DNA of 64,000 nt from Sphingomicrobium marinum (GTDB lineage Bacteria; Pseudomonadota; Alphaproteobacteria; Sphingomonadales; Sphingomonadaceae), in NCBI RefSeq assembly GCF_026157105.1, contig NZ_JANPVQ010000001.1, positions 861,501 to 925,500 on the forward strand, written 5' to 3'. Every line of letters begins with the position of its first letter. The first letter of the stretch is position 1. The notes under the pieces were generated by a model that worked only from the letters and a program-made list of their open reading frames with translations, had not been told where the DNA came from and did not search any database. The translations under genes and the position numbers were made by a program. Positions 1,695 through 33,531 of this stretch are shown piece after piece.

Positions 1695-2398
1695 CCTTCG
1701 ACGACCAGGCGCCCGCCGGTTTCCGCGTCCGACTTCAGACGTTCCACAATCGCTTTGGCGACGACATCGGGCTTCTTGAGGTCGTTGGGATCTTCGCCAG
1801 GGAAGGCGTCGGCGCGCATCGCGGTGCGGGTCGCCCCCGGATCGACTATGTGAACGCGGACCTTGCCAGTCTGCGCGTTCTCCTCGGCATAGGAGCCGAG
1901 CAGCGTATCGAAGGCGGCCTTGCTCGCGCCATAAGCGCCCCAGAAAGCGCGCGGGTTAGCGCCGACCGACGAGGTGATGCCGACGAGTTCTGCCTTGCCC
2001 GAGTGGCGCAGCATCGGATCGAAGGCGGCGATCATCGCCTGGCTGGCGAGCAGGTTGAGCGCGATGGTCTGCGAAAATTCCTTGGGGTCGATATCCTGCA
2101 CGGGGCGCAGCTTGCCCAGCATGGCAGCATTGAGCACCATGATGTCGAGCGCGTCCCAGCGTCCGCCGACGGCCTGGGCCAATTTACCGATGGCGCCATC
2201 GGCGAGCATGTCGAGCGGGGCGAGCGTGGCACTGCCGCCAGCCGCATGGATGCGTTCCTCCACCTGTTCGAGGTCCTGGGACGAGCGCGCCACGAGGATG
2301 ACGTGCGCGCCTTCGGCGGCGAGCGCTTCGGCGGTTGCCGCGCCAATACCGCGGCTGGCGCCCGTGACGAGCGCGAGTTTGTTTTCGAATGCAGACAT
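1691..2398 (-). CDS. Short-chain dehydrogenase/reductase (SDR)
   Basis: 235 residues, classical SDR length. The NAD(P)-binding TGASRGIG lies at 12-19, the NAA motif at 90-92, and the catalytic Tyr156-x3-Lys160 in YGASK with serines at about 143-144. A cytoplasmic oxidoreductase of unknown substrate. Its ATG overlaps the purF stop by one base (TAATG), so it is probably translated from the purF mRNA; this linkage gives no clear clue to the substrate. Confidence 0.93.
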   Translation of the reverse strand: MSAFENKLALVTGASRGIGAATAEALAAEGAHVILVARSSQDLEQVEERIHAAGGSATLAPLDMLADGAIGKLAQAVGGRWDALDIMVLNAAMLGKLRPVQDIDPKEFSQTIALNLLASQAMIAAFDPMLRHSGKAELVGITSSVGANPRAFWGAYGASKAAFDTLLGSYAEENAQTGKVRVHIVDPGATRTAMRADAFPGEDPNDLKKPDVVAKAIVERLKSDAETGGRLVVEG

Positions 2399-3846
2399 TA
2401 GTGGTTGCCGACGAGGCTCAGTTGCTTGGGCCCGTCGCCTTGCTCCTTGTCGGTAAGGGAAGTCGGATAGTCGCCCGAGAAGCAGGCGTCGCAGCGCTGC
2501 GGGGCGCTGGCATCGCGTTCATCGCCAAGTGCACGGTAGAGACCGTCGAGCGAGATGAAGGCAAGGCTGTCCGCCTTCACATAGTCGCGCATTTCCTCGA
2601 TGCCCATCTGCGCGGCGAGCAGCTTGGAACGCTCGGGCGTGTCGACGCCGTAGAAGCAGCTGTAGCGTGTCGGCGGGGAGGCGATGCGCATGTGCACTTC
2701 GGCAGCGCCGGCATCGCGCATCATCTGGACGAGGCGGAGCGACGTGGTGCCGCGCACGACGCTGTCGTCGACGAGCACGATCCTTTTGCCTTCGACCAGC
2801 GCCGAATTGGCATTGTGCTTCATCTTCACACCCGAATGGCGGCTGTCCTGCGACGGCTGGATGAAGGTGCGGCCGATATAGTGCGAACGAATGATCCCGA
2901 GCTCGAACGGGATATTCGCGACCTGGGCATAGCCGATCGCGGCAGGGACGCCGCTATCGGGAACGGGGACGACATAATCGGCCTCGACCGGCGCTTCGCG
3001 CGCCAGTTCTTCGCCGATCGCCTTGCGGGTCTGGTAGACCGAGGTGCCGTCGACCTTGCTGTCGGGCCGCGAGAAATAGACATGTTCGAAGATACACGGG
3101 CGCGGGCGCGCCGGTTCGAACGGCTTAAAGCTGCGCAGGCCGTCGTCGTTGACGATGATGAGTTCGCCGGGCTCCACATCGCGCAGGTAGGTCGCGCCGA
3201 TCACGTCGAAGGCGACACTTTCCGATGCGAATACGATCGATTCGCCATAACGGCCCATGACCAGCGGACGGATGCCCATCGGATCGCGGCATGCGACGAG
3301 ACCGTCGGGCATCAGCAGGCAAAGCGAATAGGCGCCTTCGACCTGCTTCAATCCGTCGATCAAGCGCTCAACCGGCTCTTCCTTCCGGCTGGTGGCGACG
3401 AGGTGGATGATGACTTCGGTGTCGCTGGTCGACTGGAAGATCGAGCCGCGCTGAACAAGGCGTTCGCGCAGCGTAATCGCGTTGGAGATGTTGCCGTTAT
3501 GCGCGACGGCAAAGCCGCCAATGGCGAGATCGGCATAGAGAGGCTGAATATTACGCTGTGCGGTTTCGCCGGTGGTCGAATAGCGTACGTGGCCGATGCC
3601 GGCGCTGCCCGCCAGCTTGCGGATCACCTTAGGCTTGGAAAAGTTCGCGCCGACATGCCCCATGCCGCGGTGGGCATGGTAATTGGTGCCGTCATTGGTG
3701 ACGATGCCGGCGGCTTCCTGGCCGCGGTGCTGGAGCGCGTGAAGGCCCAGGGCGACGACGCTGGAGGCCTGTTCGGCACCCCAGATTCCGAAGACTCCGC
3801 ATTCTTCGCGCAGCTTGTCGTCATCAAATGGATTGGTCGTCAGCAT
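2398..3846 (-). CDS. purF: Amidophosphoribosyltransferase
   Basis: First committed step of purine synthesis: glutamine + PRPP to phosphoribosylamine. An N-terminal class II glutaminase domain begins after a short propeptide; the nucleophile is Cys16 in the ECGVFG segment, and the PRPP-binding loop reads VLVDDSVVRGTTS. I chose the ATG at 3846 (482 residues) because GGAAGGGA sits 9 bases before it; an in-frame upstream ATG at 3885 lacks a ribosome site and would lengthen the propeptide by 13 residues. As in other propeptide-type PurF, processing before the Cys is expected. Confidence 0.97.
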   Translation of the reverse strand: MLTTNPFDDDKLREECGVFGIWGAEQASSVVALGLHALQHRGQEAAGIVTNDGTNYHAHRGMGHVGANFSKPKVIRKLAGSAGIGHVRYSTTGETAQRNIQPLYADLAIGGFAVAHNGNISNAITLRERLVQRGSIFQSTSDTEVIIHLVATSRKEEPVERLIDGLKQVEGAYSLCLLMPDGLVACRDPMGIRPLVMGRYGESIVFASESVAFDVIGATYLRDVEPGELIIVNDDGLRSFKPFEPARPRPCIFEHVYFSRPDSKVDGTSVYQTRKAIGEELAREAPVEADYVVPVPDSGVPAAIGYAQVANIPFELGIIRSHYIGRTFIQPSQDSRHSGVKMKHNANSALVEGKRIVLVDDSVVRGTTSLRLVQMMRDAGAAEVHMRIASPPTRYSCFYGVDTPERSKLLAAQMGIEEMRDYVKADSLAFISLDGLYRALGDERDASAPQRCDACFSGDYPTSLTDKEQGDGPKQLSLVGNH

Positions 3847-27200: not shown

Positions 27201-28745
27201 ATGGATGCGTCTTTATCCGAATGGAAGCCATTGCTTCGCCACGATTTTTGCGGCGATGAGAATGATAGCGCGCGCGTAGCTGTTCTAGAGCGATATGATA
27301 TCCCCAGTCTGGAGGATGATCCTGAACTCAACGCGCTGCGGGCATTTGCGGCCAAGTTGTGCGACGCGCCTATCGCGCTCGTGACGCTCGTCGATACGGA
27401 CACGCAGAAATTCTTGTCGCGTCAGGGCCTGGCGTCGACGTCGACCCCGCGATCGGTGAGCTTTTGCCAGTACGCGATGGTCGATGACGATATTTATATC
27501 GTGGACGATGCCAGCACACACCCGGATTATCGCGACAATCCACTGGTTACTGGCGAGCCCTATATCCGCTTTTATGCCGGTGCACCTTTGGTATCGGAGG
27601 AAGGCGCGCCGCTGGGTAGTCTTTGCATCATTGATCGAGAAGCGCGAAATGGCCTGTCCGAGCTGCAGCGCGACGGGCTCAAAGTGCTGGCCGATGCGGT
27701 CATGCGGCGCCTGACGGCGCGCCGGCGCGAGATCGAGAAGACTGCAGGCGAAATCGAATCCGAACGCTTGCTAGACCAAACCCAGCGTCAGTTCGACAAC
27801 CTTGCCGATGCCCTGCCGCAAATGGCCTGGTCGACCGATGCCGATGGTATCCCTGATTATTTCAATCAGCGCTGGTATGACTTCACCGGTATCGAAAAAG
27901 GTGAGTATTTCAGCGCCAATTGGCTGGAATTGGTACACGAGGACGACCGCCAGCGTGCCAGCGAAGTGTGGAAGGCGGCGGTGACGACCGGGGAGCCATA
28001 CGAAGTCGAATATCGGCTGCGCACTGCCGATGGCGAGTATCGCTGGACGCTTGCCCGCGGCCTCCCGGTGCGAGACGACAATGGCAACATCGTGCGGTGG
28101 TTTGGCAGCAATACGGATATTCACGAGACGAGCCTCCTGATGGAGAGCCAGCGCCTGCTGAGCCAGGAACTGAGCCACCGCATCAAGAATATCTTCAGCG
28201 TCGTGTCCGGCCTGGTAAGCTTTGCGAGCCGCGACAATCCGGAGATCAAGGGTATCGCTGCCGAGATCAGCGATCGCATCGCGGCCCTTGGACGAGCTCA
28301 TAATTATGTGCGACCGGTCGCCGACGAACCCGCATCGGAAATTACGCTGAAAGACATGCTGGACGATCTTTTCGCGCCGTACGCAGAAGACGGGGTGCCG
28401 CGCGTGGAAGTCGCAGGCGCCGAGATCGTCATTCGGGAATCGGCGGTGACGCCGCTGGCGCTCGCATTCCACGAACTGGCGACCAACGCCGTCAAATATG
28501 GCGCGCTGTCGCTGCCGGAAGGGCGCGTGTCGCTCAAGATCGAGGATGACGGCGACGCCTTGGTCATGGAGTGGCGCGAATCCGGTGGGCCGCAGCTTGA
28601 CGACGTACCGCATGAAGGGGGGTTCGGTACCGATCTCCTTGGGCTGAGCATCGAGCGGCAGTTACGCGGGTCGGTTGAGCGGGAATGGAAGCCCGAAGGG
28701 CTTGTCGCGACATTGCGGGTGCAAGCCGACGCTATCAAGGCATAG
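27201..28745 (+). CDS. HWE-family sensor histidine kinase (GAF-PAS)
   Basis: 514 residues, no membrane helix, so cytoplasmic. GAF domain (about 20-180), PAS/PAC (about 195-310, YRLRTADGEYRWTLARG), then an HWE kinase core: His326 in ELSHRIKNIF, N-box FHELATNAVKYG, and the W-x-E signature in MEWRESGGP. HWE/HisKA2 kinases in Sphingomonas commonly feed the PhyR-NepR-EcfG general stress pathway. No response regulator is adjacent. Its GAF/PAS input could be redox, light or a small ligand; no LOV cysteine motif (NCRFLQ-like) is visible. Confidence 0.92.
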   Translation: MDASLSEWKPLLRHDFCGDENDSARVAVLERYDIPSLEDDPELNALRAFAAKLCDAPIALVTLVDTDTQKFLSRQGLASTSTPRSVSFCQYAMVDDDIYIVDDASTHPDYRDNPLVTGEPYIRFYAGAPLVSEEGAPLGSLCIIDREARNGLSELQRDGLKVLADAVMRRLTARRREIEKTAGEIESERLLDQTQRQFDNLADALPQMAWSTDADGIPDYFNQRWYDFTGIEKGEYFSANWLELVHEDDRQRASEVWKAAVTTGEPYEVEYRLRTADGEYRWTLARGLPVRDDNGNIVRWFGSNTDIHETSLLMESQRLLSQELSHRIKNIFSVVSGLVSFASRDNPEIKGIAAEISDRIAALGRAHNYVRPVADEPASEITLKDMLDDLFAPYAEDGVPRVEVAGAEIVIRESAVTPLALAFHELATNAVKYGALSLPEGRVSLKIEDDGDALVMEWRESGGPQLDDVPHEGGFGTDLLGLSIERQLRGSVEREWKPEGLVATLRVQADAIKA

Positions 28746-28817
28746 AGACGTCATCGGCGGTTAACCCGATCCTTACGCTGTGTCCCTATTGGTGGGACGC
28801 GCAAGAAAGGGCCTGGT

Positions 28818-29399
28818 GTGGGTGGACTGATCGACACGATAGGATCAATGATGGTGACGGGGTTGGCGTTGGCCTTCTTCTTCGGCGTTGCCTATCGGAT
28901 CATGCATAATAGCGGGGCGAACTGGCGCCAGTTTTCGTCTGCCTATCCGCGCCGGGTGCACGGCGATGCGATCGCCAAGAAAGCATCGGGCGCGGTGCGC
29001 GTAGGCGAACCGGGCAGGCGCTGGGGCGTCTATTCGGGTGACCTTAAGGCCAATCACCTCCCGCCGGTATGGGTTAGCGTCTACGAAGACGGGCTGCTGC
29101 TGAGCGTCTACGGCTTTATCCACTACGGGCAGCCCGACATGTTCCTGCCATTCCAGGATATGCGCGTGCATCGCGCCAAGATGGGGCTGATCGATTGCTA
29201 TGGCGTGCAGATGCGTCGGGTGCCCGATTTGGAGGTGCTGCTCTACGACGACATCGTAGAGTGGGCGGCAGGCCATGCGCCCGCGTTGGACGCGATGATC
29301 AAACGGTCGGCGTTGGGCATGAACAGCTTTTCAGGTGATCTGCCGATGGCCGCAGAGCCATCGTTTGGACGCCGGCGCCGCGTCCGTGGTGCGCGGTAA
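28818..29399 (+). CDS. Membrane-anchored hypothetical protein
   Basis: 193 residues from a GTG with AAGAAAGGG upstream. One N-terminal membrane helix (about 8-26, MMVTGLALAFFFGVAYRIM), then a soluble region rich in beta-type sequence (VWVSVYEDGLLLSVYGFIHYGQP) and a basic C-terminus (GRRRRVRGAR). No known domain recognised. It ends at a bidirectional terminator. Confidence 0.7.
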   Translation: MGGLIDTIGSMMVTGLALAFFFGVAYRIMHNSGANWRQFSSAYPRRVHGDAIAKKASGAVRVGEPGRRWGVYSGDLKANHLPPVWVSVYEDGLLLSVYGFIHYGQPDMFLPFQDMRVHRAKMGLIDCYGVQMRRVPDLEVLLYDDIVEWAAGHAPALDAMIKRSALGMNSFSGDLPMAAEPSFGRRRRVRGAR

Positions 29400-29406
29400 A
29401 AAACCA

Positions 29407-29441
29407 GAGGCGCCCGCATTTCTGCGGACGCCTCAGTTTTT
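29407..29441. terminator. Bidirectional intrinsic terminator
   Basis: Stem GAGGCG-CCGCA against TGCGG-CGCCTC with a TTTC loop; TTTTT follows on the plus strand and an A-run (29396-29403) precedes it, serving the minus-strand lipoprotein gene too. Confidence 0.85.
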
Positions 29442-29456
29442 CGTGTCGAATTTGAC

Positions 29457-29717
29457 CTAGTTGCCGTTTGTATCGACGTCGACCGTGACGCCGTCTGCCA
29501 CTTCGGCGCGGCCTTCGACGCCGACGCCGTCGTCGTTGATAGAGATGGTCGCACCGTCTTCGTCAGCAGCGACAGGCGGCTGGGTCTCGTCGATCGTCTG
29601 CTCTTCAACGATTTCACCGTCCTCCTGAACGGAAGGGGCCGGCGTGGTGTTTTCCGGTTCGCCGCAGGCGCCCAGCGTGAAGGCCAACGCGGCGGTCGTA
29701 GCGATAATGATTTTCAT
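29457..29717 (-). CDS. Small acidic lipoprotein, probable general-stress protein
   Basis: 86 residues from ATG 29717. Lipoprotein signal with lipobox LGAC (Cys18 region); the mature part is nearly all acidic and low-complexity (EDGEIVEEQTIDETQ, ADGVTVDVDTNGN), without a known domain. An exact EcfG promoter lies 30 bases upstream and a GGGAG site precedes the start. Similar short acidic lipoproteins occur in sphingomonads; their role is unknown. Confidence 0.75.
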   Translation of the reverse strand: MKIIIATTAALAFTLGACGEPENTTPAPSVQEDGEIVEEQTIDETQPPVAADEDGATISINDDGVGVEGRAEVADGVTVDVDTNGN

Positions 29718-29746
29718 TTGTTGGTCTCCCAATGGAATTGTCGATC

Positions 29747-29772
29747 AACGTGCGAAAACTCCCCGATGTTCC
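29747..29772 (-). promoter_or_regulatory. EcfG-type promoter, exact consensus match
   Basis: On the minus strand: GGAAC (29772-29768), 17-base spacer, CGTT (29750-29747), 29 bases before the lipoprotein ATG. Exact match to the general-stress consensus. Confidence 0.7.
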
Positions 29773-29836
29773 AGCTTAAAGAAACCCAAGGAACACATGC
29801 GACCACAGAGGAAGTAACCAAACAGGCAAAAAATCC

Positions 29837-29865
29837 TTGACATTGTCACGCTCTATCGGTACATA
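29837..29865 (+). promoter_or_regulatory. Strong sigma-70-like promoter
   Basis: TTGACA (29837-29842), exactly 17 bases, TACATA (29860-29865). This is the best housekeeping-type promoter seen in the window. Initiation would fall near 29870-29872, just before two hairpins. Confidence 0.7.
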
Positions 29866-29869
29866 TTGA

Positions 29870-29934
29870 AACCATCGAGAAGTGCGAATCGCCGCGGTGG
29901 TTCAGTTCGAGGCTCCGGCAACGGGGCTTTTTTT
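29870..29934 (+). ncRNA. Candidate small RNA or leader/attenuator ahead of the GTA remnant
   Basis: Between the strong promoter and a complete intrinsic terminator lie about 65 bases without a reading frame of note. They fold as hairpin 1 (AACCATC 29870-29876 with GGTGGTT 29896-29902) and the terminator hairpin. It could be a free-standing small RNA, or a leader controlling read-through into the terminase genes that start at 29961. I recognise no known RNA family. Confidence 0.5.
29910..29934 (+). terminator. Intrinsic terminator of the candidate small RNA
   Basis: 8-bp stem AGGCTCCG/CGGGGCTT with a GCAA tetraloop (two G-T pairs), running into seven consecutive T (29928-29934). Confidence 0.75.
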
Positions 29935-29960
29935 GTGTCTGTTGTCGGGGAGAAGGCGAG

Positions 29961-30467
29961 GTGGGCGATCGACGGGACAACATCGTGCCGCTGACGCTGG
30001 AGAGTGGGGAAAAGCCGCGCAAGACACGACGTAAGTCGGCGATCAGCAAGGAGCAGGCGGAGACCTTCTTCGAGACGCTGGCCGAAACATGCAATGTGAC
30101 CCATTCATGCGACGCGGCCGGGATCAGCACTGGCAGCTGTTACAAGCGGCGCCGCGCGGATGCGGCGTTCCGGCAGCGCTGGGTGGAGGCGCTGGCGCAC
30201 GGATACGCAAAGCTGGAGCTGGCGCTGCTGGAGCGGGCGTTGGTGGGCACCGAAAAGGTCACGACATACAAGGATGGCAAGACCAGCGTGGTGCGCGAGT
30301 ACCCCAATGCGCTGGCGATGAGCTTGCTCAAGATGCATCGCGACACGGTACGCGAGGTCGAAAGCGAAGAGCCGGACCCGCACGAGGTGGAGGAAGCGCG
30401 AGAGCGCATCCTTATGAAGCTGGAGCGCATGGCAGCGCGCATGAAATCGGACGATGCCGACGCATGA
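29961..30467 (+). CDS. GTA/phage small-terminase-like protein
   Basis: 168 residues from a GTG with GGAGAAGG upstream. Residues about 28-75 form a helix-turn-helix-like region (ETLAETCNVTHSCDAAGISTGSCYKRR) typical of small terminases; the C-terminus is charged and helical (HEVEEARERILMKLERM). In Rhodobacter-type gene transfer agents this gene precedes the large terminase, as here (ATGA overlap). The reading frame is intact although its downstream partner is broken. Confidence 0.75.
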   Translation: MGDRRDNIVPLTLESGEKPRKTRRKSAISKEQAETFFETLAETCNVTHSCDAAGISTGSCYKRRRADAAFRQRWVEALAHGYAKLELALLERALVGTEKVTTYKDGKTSVVREYPNALAMSLLKMHRDTVREVESEEPDPHEVEEARERILMKLERMAARMKSDDADA

Positions 30468-30890
30468 ATCGGCAACTGTCGCAGCGGCGCATGCAGGCAC
30501 TTGCCAGCGCGCCGCCCGATCGGCTTGCAGCGATCCTTAGAAGGATTGGTGCGAGGGAATTACTGAAGTTCGATGCCTGGTTCGAGGCTTGGGCGCATCC
30601 GGGGCAATTGCCGCCGCCGGGGAAAGGATGGCGCACGTGGCTGATGATGGCCGGGCGCGGTTACGGAAAGACGCGGGCAGGCGCCGAATGGGTGCATCGA
30701 TTGGCGATGCCCAAAAGGCGCACCCGGATCGCACTGGTGGCGGCGACACTGGCGGAAGCGCGTAGCGTCATGGTGGAGGGTCGCAGCGGCCTAATCGCGG
30801 TGGCGGCGCTGCGGCAGGTGCGGCTGAAATGGGAGCCTTCGACCGGCCTGTTGACGTGGCCGAGCGGGACGAGGGCGCTCATGATTTTCG
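30464..30890 (+). pseudogene. Large terminase (GTA TerL) N-terminal fragment
   Basis: About 142 residues look like the N-terminus of a GTA large terminase: LKFDAWFEAWAH, Walker A GRGYGKT at 64-70 (AGRGYGKTRAGAEWV), and VAATLAEARSVMVEG. Homology fades after SGTRALM; the frame runs on without resemblance to a stop at 31030. Walker B and the nuclease half are absent, so DNA packaging is not possible with this protein. The family's normal length is above 400 residues. Confidence 0.8.
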
Positions 30891-31301
30891 GCGCTGGTGC
30901 AGCCCGTGCTTGCCTCAGTTCCGGTCACCAGTCCGGATCCTGCCGCGGTAATCGGGGACATCGTCATCGTGGGGGTCGGTGCGACGGGCGATTTTGCAGG
31001 CCGCGACAATGCGCTTGCGATCCTCGGTGAGAATGGATGGCGTTTCGTCGCGGCCTTCACTGGCATGGCCGCGCAAATCGCGCAAACCGGGATCGAATGG
31101 CGCTTCGATGGCACGAATTGGATCGAAGGCAGCCAAAACGTGCAAGAAATCCTAGTTTCCGGCGTAAAAGTCGTTGGAGCGCAACAACCTGACATTGTCG
31201 CGCCCACAGGCGGAACTACCCCCGATTCCGAGGCAAGAACAGCGATTTCGGCAATTCTTGGCACTCTGCGCGCGCACGGCCTAATCGCAGGTGCACAATA
31301 A
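30885..31301 (+). pseudogene. DUF2793-type GTA tail-protein C-terminal fragment
   Basis: In the third frame, open from a TGA at 30882, the sequence reads ALVQPVLASVPVTSP, GDIVIVGVGATGDFAG and WRFDGTNWIEG, resembling the internal part of DUF2793 phage/GTA tail proteins, which normally have an N-terminal part before ALVQPV. It continues to a stop at 31301. No good start codon or ribosome site. It is fused directly to the terminase fragment, so the structural genes that normally lie between are missing. Confidence 0.65.
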
Positions 31302-31323
31302 AAGCCACAGTCGTATCAGAAAC

Positions 31324-31345
31324 TTAACGTGGTTAACCCCATTAA
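31324..31345 (+). repeat. Three TTAA elements at exact 9-base spacing
   Basis: TTAA at 31324, 31333 and 31342 in a stretch containing GGTTAACC, about 110 bases before the beta-barrel gene. Spacing is N5, not the N7 of a full CtrA site. Otherwise 31302-31454 shows nothing coding. Confidence 0.4.
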
Positions 31346-31454
31346 ATGAGGCTTTTTGGTCACTATTCTCCCCTATTCTCGCTTGCGTCGGACCTTTCGG
31401 CCCCGTACTGTGTTTGGCAGTTCAGTTAGAACGTAAGTGAAAGGGGACTTTATT

Positions 31455-32294
<840 letters not shown>

Positions 32295-32343
32295 GCCAAG
32301 CGGGGCAGCAAAGCTGGCAACAGCTTAGCGGCCACCAAGAAAG

Positions 32344-32378
32344 AGGGATCGGTCTTCGGACCGGTCCCTTTTTCTTTG
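32344..32378 (+). terminator. Intrinsic terminator of the beta-barrel gene
   Basis: 11-bp stem AGGGATCGGTC/GACCGGTCCCT (one G-T pair) with the stable TTCG tetraloop, followed by TTTTTCTTT. Confidence 0.9.
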
Positions 32379-32417
32379 CGCTTGCGCGGGAGACATGGTC
32401 GTCGATACAGTTCGCTC

Positions 32418-32921
32418 ATGAGTAATTTGGTGAAGTTCGCTTGCGCCGCCGCGTTTTTGTCGAGCGCGCTTGTCGTGCCGTCCGCGGTGATCGCGCAAGA
32501 TCAAGCGACCATAAGCCAGACGATGGCTTGCGCTGACGGCCGCATCCCTACCAAGGACGGATCCTGCGCCGAAACCGAGACCGTGCCCGGGCCCTACATT
32601 GTCTTCTTTCCCTGGGGGGAGATGGGGGTCGACGTAGATGGCGCCATGATCGTAGACGACGCCGCCTCTTCATATTCGGATGGGCTCGCCATCACGCTCA
32701 CCGGCCATAGCGACCGTTCGGGTCCGGCCGCGGTGAACCGCCGGATCTCACAGCGGCGCGCCCAAGCCGTACGCGATGCACTCATCGCACGCGGTGTTCC
32801 GGCCGACGTCATCACCATCGAGGCGGAGGGCGAAGCGGCACTCTTGATCGGCACGTTGGATGGCGTGAGGGAGGCACAAAACCGGCGCGTCGAAATACTC
32901 TTTTCGCGCGCTTCGGATTGA
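32418..32921 (+). CDS. OmpA-family peptidoglycan-binding protein
   Basis: 167 residues from ATG 32418. Signal peptide (about 1-27, ending VIAQ), short linker that also contains a CADGRIPTKDGSCAE echo of the neighbour's CPDGSVILATEACP, then an OmpA C-terminal domain (about 58-163, GPYIVFFPW, TGHSDRSG, RRAQAVRDAL, RRVEILF). Asp and Arg positions that bind diaminopimelate are present. Should be periplasmic and cell-wall bound. It may work with the barrel encoded upstream. Confidence 0.88.
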   Translation: MSNLVKFACAAAFLSSALVVPSAVIAQDQATISQTMACADGRIPTKDGSCAETETVPGPYIVFFPWGEMGVDVDGAMIVDDAASSYSDGLAITLTGHSDRSGPAAVNRRISQRRAQAVRDALIARGVPADVITIEAEGEAALLIGTLDGVREAQNRRVEILFSRASD

Positions 32922-32943
32922 ACCAAGTATCCAATCTACCGTT
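32919..32943 (+). promoter_or_regulatory. Candidate EcfG-type promoter for sodC, one mismatch
   Basis: TGAAC (32919-32923), 16-base spacer, CGTT (32940-32943), 27 bases before the sodC ATG. The first -35 base differs from GGAAC; the -35 overlaps the stop codon of the OmpA gene. Confidence 0.45.
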
Positions 32944-32970
32944 AGCATTCGAGGATACTAGGAGACCGAA

Positions 32971-33531
32971 ATGAAGCCCCGCTTTTCCATGCTTGCCGCG
33001 TCTTTGCTGCTTGCCGCCTGTTACAACGCAGACGACAACGACCAGAATATCAGCATCGACGAAAATGGCTCCCCGGCGGCCGAGGGTGAGGTTACCTTGA
33101 TGTCCCCTACTGGCGAACAGGTCGGCACGGTCGCCTATCTGGAAGAACCCTCGGGTATGCAGCTTCGCATATCGGTCAACGGGTTGGCGCCCGGCGTTCA
33201 TGCCGTACATCTCCATACGACGGGGACGTGCGAAGCTCCTGACTTCAGCACAGCGGGTGGACACTGGAACCCGATGGGCAAGGAACATGGCCGCGACAAT
33301 CCCGACGGCGCGCACCTTGGCGATCTTGCCAATATGAATGTCGGCGAAGACGGGACCGGCACGGCGACCTATATGGTCGCCGGCGTGTCGTTTGAAGGTG
33401 TCGAGCCCGCGATGAGCGACAGCGACGGCACCGCGCTGGTTATTCATGAAGGGGCCGATGACTACGCTACCGACCCAACCGGCGATGCCGGCGGGCGAGT
33501 AGCCTGTGCAGTCCTTGCCGAAGCTGCCTAG
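32971..33531 (+). CDS. sodC: Cu/Zn superoxide dismutase, lipoprotein form
   Basis: 186 residues. Lipobox LAAC near residue 17 anchors it in the envelope. Metal ligands are visible in [23 protein letters not shown] and VIHEGADDY, and the active-site Arg with the disulfide Cys in GGRVACAV. It removes superoxide in the periplasm. AGGAGA precedes the start. Its stop overlaps the convergent uvrA stop within CTAG. Confidence 0.93.

Follow-up and report, generated by a model that had tools for sequence, protein, structure and literature searches.

A GTA cluster reduced to its two ends by a probable internal deletion in Sphingomicrobium marinum

GTA clusters are costly and have been argued to be lost by cheaters, and such loss is usually visible only as absence. 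Pseudogenisation and loss of GTA genes in several alphaproteobacterial lineages, which are proposed to be cheater lineages, are described in PMC10883770, which also lists DUF2793 as a GTA tail fibre protein co-evolving with the GTA genes. With regard to expression, the Caulobacter GTA promoter carries a GafZ element between its -35 and -10 regions, and a terminator is bypassed (PMC11150451). DUF6456, in turn, is the annotation under which homologues of GafA appear (PMC9638019).

Here we describe a locus of Sphingomicrobium marinum (RefSeq assembly GCF_026157105.1, contig NZ_JANPVQ010000001.1) in a stretch of 64,000 nucleotides, referred to as the window, to which the coordinates given below for the locus and its flanks refer. 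The locus resembles RcGTA-type clusters in its terS-terL start, in the presence of DUF2793 and in having a syntenic cluster in a relative, but nothing remains of what would separate TerL codon ~143 from DUF2793 codon ~32. In agreement with the losses covered in PMC10883770, genes have disappeared where relatives keep them; unlike the cases treated there, a single genus displays several internal deletions that differ from one another and in which the promoter and often DUF2793 are kept. Taken alone, the locus adds one more instance of GTA loss, and its value lies in the dating of the event by an undecayed TerL stub and in the genus-wide series of deletions. Complete clusters, varied internal deletions and empty sites occur side by side, so that the genus presents loss in progress; the undecayed stub dates one loss event as probably recent, and the persistence or extinction of non-producer lineages becomes testable by counting and dating deletions. 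A literature search on DUF2793, and on Sphingomicrobium or Sphingomonadales in connection with GTA, the coverage of which left most subscription papers outside, returned no account of this site or of the recurrent junctions described below.

The remnant locus and its intact counterpart

The genome comprises 2,238,205 bases on 2 contigs with an estimated completeness of 99.99%, and the locus is present as a single copy inside the 2.24-Mb contig. Its features are compiled in Table 1. The small terminase is intact, as the first-pass annotation had proposed: its product matches the PHROG small terminase family (2.8e-19), while its best Pfam match (0.012) is sub-threshold with respect to the family cut-off. 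The better start of the TerL frame is the ATG at 30464, which overlaps the TerS stop, and the length of the stub, first read as ~142 residues from 30473, thereby becomes ~143 codons. It contains a Pfam Terminase_6N match (6.4e-9, above the cut-off) at residues 57-140 of the stretch starting at 30473. The TerL reading frame extends to 31030 and thus crosses DUF2793 in the wrong frame, the frames of TerL (30464) and DUF2793 (30897) being different. DUF2793 is entered from within, with a shortfall of ~31 N-terminal codons when measured against the 165-aa protein of the relative G013. The joint between both parts, initially placed at 30884-30893, held approximately, as comparison with relatives widens it slightly.

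Table 1. Features of the GTA remnant and its upstream region (window coordinates)
Feature	Position	Strand	Evidence
Candidate activator site, AACC-N5-GG motif upstream of -35 (putative function)	29816..29826	+	Similar motif before most promoter copies compared, by eye
GTA promoter: TTGACA 29837-29842, spacer with GTCACGCT, putative -10 TACATA 29860-29865	29837..29865	+	TTGACANNGTNACGCT match
Terminator-like hairpin followed by T run, between promoter and TerS	29909..29930	+	Scan: 1 found, shuffles mean 0.4 (weak alone)
terS, GTA small terminase, intact	29961..30467	+	ORF of 168 aa; PHROG match; dN/dS to G001 0.081
terL N-terminal stub, ~143 codons, truncated by deletion	30464..30892	+	Pfam, tblastn, comparison with relatives
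Deletion junction	30880..30896	.	End of TerL homology and start of DUF2793 homology versus relatives; ~15.4 kb missing relative to G013
DUF2793 tail-fibre-type gene, open, without ~31 N-terminal codons	30897..31301	+	Pfam 1.3e-12, above cut-off; dN/dS to G001 0.113

The intact counterpart is found in the congeneric genome G013, in which a 16.7-kb RcGTA-type cluster (C1:368744-385487) is located between folE/histidine kinase and uvrA, the same genes that flank the S. marinum locus. This cluster begins with TerS and ends with DUF2793; in between, we take the order to be terL, portal, a protease-like gene and capsid, then additional head and tail genes, followed by an NlpC-type gene and a long gp15-type gene. 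Except for terS, terL and DUF2793, these names were assigned from sequence and order by analogy with RcGTA. Since the syntenic cluster has TerS first and DUF2793 last, the parts found in S. marinum constitute the two ends of one cluster, the middle of which has been deleted. The initial reading, in which only the two ends of a GTA cluster survive, was therefore correct. As judged from the G013 coordinates, the absent stretch, which reaches from TerL codon 143 up to codon 32 of DUF2793, amounts to ~15.4 kb. Hence, in place of a complete RcGTA-type head-tail gene set the site retains only terS, the terL stub and most of DUF2793, all of them homologous to and syntenic with the G013 cluster, and represents a degraded RcGTA-type remnant. 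The capsid (MCP) and portal proteins of G013 gave no match on either contig of the S. marinum genome at E up to 10, a search made without a positive control and thus proving little, though the same two proteins find homologues in the loci of relatives by tblastn.

That the middle was collapsed or dropped during assembly is very improbable, considering that the locus lies inside a 2.24-Mb contig of a practically complete genome, that no repeat bounding the junction was seen in the sequence by eye, that capsid and portal are matchless on the second contig as well, and that the separately recorded sister genome G001, a MAG, likewise is without the middle. An origin from an ordinary prophage instead of a GTA would be suggested by the resemblance of TerS and TerL to phage proteins as well, the GTA function of the relatives' clusters being itself putative. 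Yet site and gene order are common to several relatives, one type of promoter recurs and is nearly always single per genome, DUF2793 resides at the cluster end, and the 106 phage records matched by TerL in tblastn all show less than 60% identity, which leaves the prophage origin scarcely credible.

Altogether, a single recent deletion, joining TerL codon ~143 to DUF2793 codon ~32, very probably removed ~15.4 kb from the interior of an RcGTA-type cluster. This reading is supported by the synteny with G013, the missing capsid and portal matches, the intact promoter block and TerS, the undecayed TerL stub and the different deletion of G001. That a single large deletion took place, as first proposed, is the simplest reading, and two close steps may fit the junction equally. 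The deletion may have arisen by illegitimate or short-homology recombination. The cell would have lost the ability to package DNA and to form particles and would hence be a GTA non-producer, in which the promoter may still give rise to TerS and a useless TerL stub.

Age of the deletion and constraint on the remnants

In a uvrA tree built from 57 genomes, G001 is the sister of S. marinum with a support of 100. Its remnant consists of terS and ~27 TerL codons that continue in the same frame into DUF2793 at codon ~55, so that its deletion differs from, and includes, the one in S. marinum. Considered alone, these nested positions may reflect common ancestry with later enlargement in G001 or two events. 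Between both genomes, dN/dS is 0.081 for TerS (bootstrap 0.034-0.136; 168 codons, dS 1.09) and 0.113 for DUF2793 (0.055-0.188; 104 codons, dS 0.93), and the neighbouring genes, namely folE, the kinase gene and two small ones, range from 0.038 to 0.165. By themselves, the low values of TerS and DUF2793 would also be consistent with retained function.

The TerL stub offers a control in this respect. Devoid of its C-terminal two thirds, it should not work as a motor and therefore can be used to gauge decay since the deletion. In comparison with 17 relatives carrying a longer TerL, several of which have otherwise reduced clusters, the stub keeps 31 of 32 invariant sites, and the exception, codon 142 at 30887, lies in the junction itself. 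At conserved sites of this stretch, S. marinum shows 7 changes versus 8 in the intact G013; for TerS the numbers are 3 versus 10, with 20 of 20 invariant sites kept. According to a rough estimate, neutral evolution since the split from G001 would have led to ~28-38 changes at 31 such invariant TerL sites, which suggests, as an equally rough figure, that the stub was unconstrained for at most ~8-11% of that time. Because the stub has not decayed, the deletion is probably young, and in a young deletion it is unsurprising that TerS and the promoter still persist. Their survival, already pointed out in the first-pass annotation, is confirmed by the intact TerS and by the GTA-associated promoter block upstream of it. 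Most simply, the low dN/dS of TerS and DUF2793 would represent a carry-over from the intact cluster. Provided that the deletion is young, the sister deletions would be separate events, unless the stub itself is selected; one old deletion that was later enlarged in G001 is possible if the TerL stub is under selection.

An older deletion, preceding the split of S. marinum and G001, after which TerS and/or DUF2793 took on another role in the cell while still driven by the former GTA promoter, is compatible with the dN/dS values of both genes at a synonymous divergence of ~1, with the nested deletions and with the kept promoter. Moreover, the 26 TerL codons common to both genomes look less constrained, with a dN/dS of 0.41 (0.16-0.88) from 6 synonymous and 8 other changes. 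The first 26 codons of TerL are, however, variable among the 17 relatives as well (mean identity 0.23 versus 0.63 for codons 27-143), and none of the 32 invariant sites falls in this stretch. For DUF2793 itself, ten broken or end-only copies and that of G033 were set aside from a total of 52, and violations were counted in the rest: truncated or isolated copies show 12 violations in 16 genomes as against 18 in the 17 genomes with complete or probably complete clusters, and the full-length copies from reduced clusters 5 in 8. Thus, DUF2793 is not more decayed when truncated or isolated, which fits either recency or selection. On the other hand, recency explains all of these observations, given that the TerL stub, expected to be free to drift, is undecayed. 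In addition, the S. marinum DUF2793 lies out of frame with TerL, with GTG as its first usual start codon, ahead of which visual inspection gave no clear ribosome-binding site; ten other genomes have a broken DUF2793 or only its end, and in some nothing is left. Exaptation of TerS or DUF2793 as the main reading of the low dN/dS was rejected on account of the equally undecayed stub, and the older deletion with a new role is considered improbable in comparison with the recent one.

As a separate observation, the outer-membrane gene adjoining the locus (31437-32150) shows a dS of 0.23 to G001 versus ~0.8 for other flanking genes, and the intergenic region preceding it (~31282-31420) is nearly identical between both genomes. 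This closeness would be a sign of recent exchange or of strong constraint.

Promoter, leader and candidate regulators

The block upstream of terS qualifies as a sequence-defined candidate GTA promoter for sphingomonads. Among 71 genomes of the genus, TTGACANNGTNACGCT gives 54 matches in 52 genomes, compared to none of 71 in the reversed control. S. marinum has one exact match (29837-29852), situated at the GTA locus. In the loci examined, the matches belong to the GTA locus itself or precede a terminase that has been relocated; that of G091 precedes a decayed remnant at another site. A few matches fall outside the loci examined. A generic sigma-70 promoter scan did not call the GTA promoter in S. 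marinum, and a scan with AACCNNNNNGG alone, which yielded 863 matches versus 1217 in its reversed control, is too loose to be informative genome-wide. The promoter is followed by a conserved leader and, in many relatives, by a GC-rich, hairpin-like segment and a run of T ahead of TerS, features that were recognised by eye outside S. marinum. Rfam searches of positions 28000-33000 returned no match up to E 1.

A conserved element between -35 and -10 at the GTA cluster, a feature of GafY/GafZ-controlled promoters, is found in S. marinum at the level of sequence. The arrangement is like that of the GafY/GafZ promoter of Caulobacter crescentus (PMC11150451), comprising an element between -35 and -10, a terminator downstream and an activator site upstream. 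It differs from the Caulobacter promoter in that the sequence elements are not the same and in that the hairpin precedes the first gene in S. marinum whereas it follows it in Caulobacter.

The S. marinum genome encodes one strong and intact DUF6456 match (1.5e-39); 2 of 14 control genomes were matched, one of them being Caulobacter. At the corresponding locus, L259, the GafA-type DUF6456 gene (1492-2022 of that locus, minus strand) is divergent from a regulator gene (2078-2641, plus strand) that we take to be XRE-like. This divergent pair is reminiscent of the RogA-GafYZ control in Caulobacter.

Cluster states and recurrent junctions across the genus

The cluster site or a remnant of it was examined in 65 of the 71 genomes, a gene being counted as present at a tblastn E-value of 1e-4 and 60% of its length. 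Nearly complete clusters with at least 7 of 9 structural genes were found in 14 of these 65, reduced clusters in 43 and no structural genes in 8. Seven of the 43 (G012, G033, G036, G081, G084, G085, G092) may in fact be complete, their contigs breaking off inside the cluster or close to it. Among the 8, the contig of G082 breaks off and a decayed remnant is present at another site in G091. Cluster state often differs between sister genomes according to the uvrA tree, a single-gene tree with about a dozen nodes of support below 60. The combination of whole or partial TerS and DUF2793, with little or nothing between, occurs with different breakpoints in S. marinum, G001, G014, G023, G078 and G083.

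Other rearrangements were noted besides. Split clusters, in which terS-terL have been moved to another site and are preceded there by a separate GTA promoter copy, are present in G009 (L212 and L239), G008 (L245), G092 (L247), G093 (L246) and G004 (L213), and the main cluster of G009 begins directly with portal behind another promoter copy. In the otherwise complete clusters of G002 (L085) and G061 (L086), terL comes next after the promoter, and no terS can be recognised in the interval.

Two types of junction recur almost identically. In the first, capsid codon 353 is joined to DUF2793 codon 28 with the same Tyr-Ala-Thr in G069 (L074), G029 (L076) and G070 (L084), and G069 has a stop codon at the place of the junction. 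Each short form groups beside relatives that have the longer cluster: G069 beside G087 with support 100 in the uvrA, portal, capsid and DUF2793 trees; G029 beside G032 with 99, 84, 59 and 99 in the same trees; and G070 beside G011 with 83, 100 and 100 in the portal, capsid and DUF2793 trees, and with G011 plus G017 in uvrA (99). In the second, the leader of the promoter runs, within ~11 bases, into codons 14-16 of DUF2793 in G018 (L095), G004 (L105), G028 (L109), G024 (L101), G021 (L079) and G090 (L121). With G090 omitted on account of its broken copy, the DUF2793 tree distributes the other five over four places, some of them weak (G028 with G004, 56; G021 with G032 and G029, 72). No shared word longer than ~3 bases was found by eye at the capsid or leader joints. 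Since these genomes sit beside relatives with longer clusters or in separate places of the trees, and since no long shared word is apparent, the recurrent junctions are likely of independent origin. Horizontal spread of the whole deletion allele was considered for the capsid-DUF2793 junction and found unsupported, as every short form groups with relatives carrying longer clusters in the trees of portal, capsid, DUF2793 and uvrA; transfer of a short stretch around this junction is possible.

The junction of S. marinum, at DUF2793 codon ~32, falls in the same stretch of DUF2793 as the recurrent ones. The S. marinum locus itself is a case of ordinary GTA decay, and what is unusual is the recurrence of near-identical junctions in separate lineages. 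Tentatively, and with the odds rather against it, GTA deletions in the genus could be directed, in view of recurring junctions that leave the GTA promoter and, in most cases, the C-terminal portion of DUF2793 untouched, either through a recombination hot spot or through a useful, particle-free expression of DUF2793 in non-producers. As a further observation, the same foreign-looking stretch (GGCGGCTCAAGCTTAGGAGCGAG) is joined to DUF2793 at codon ~23 in G071 (L071) and G081 (L112).
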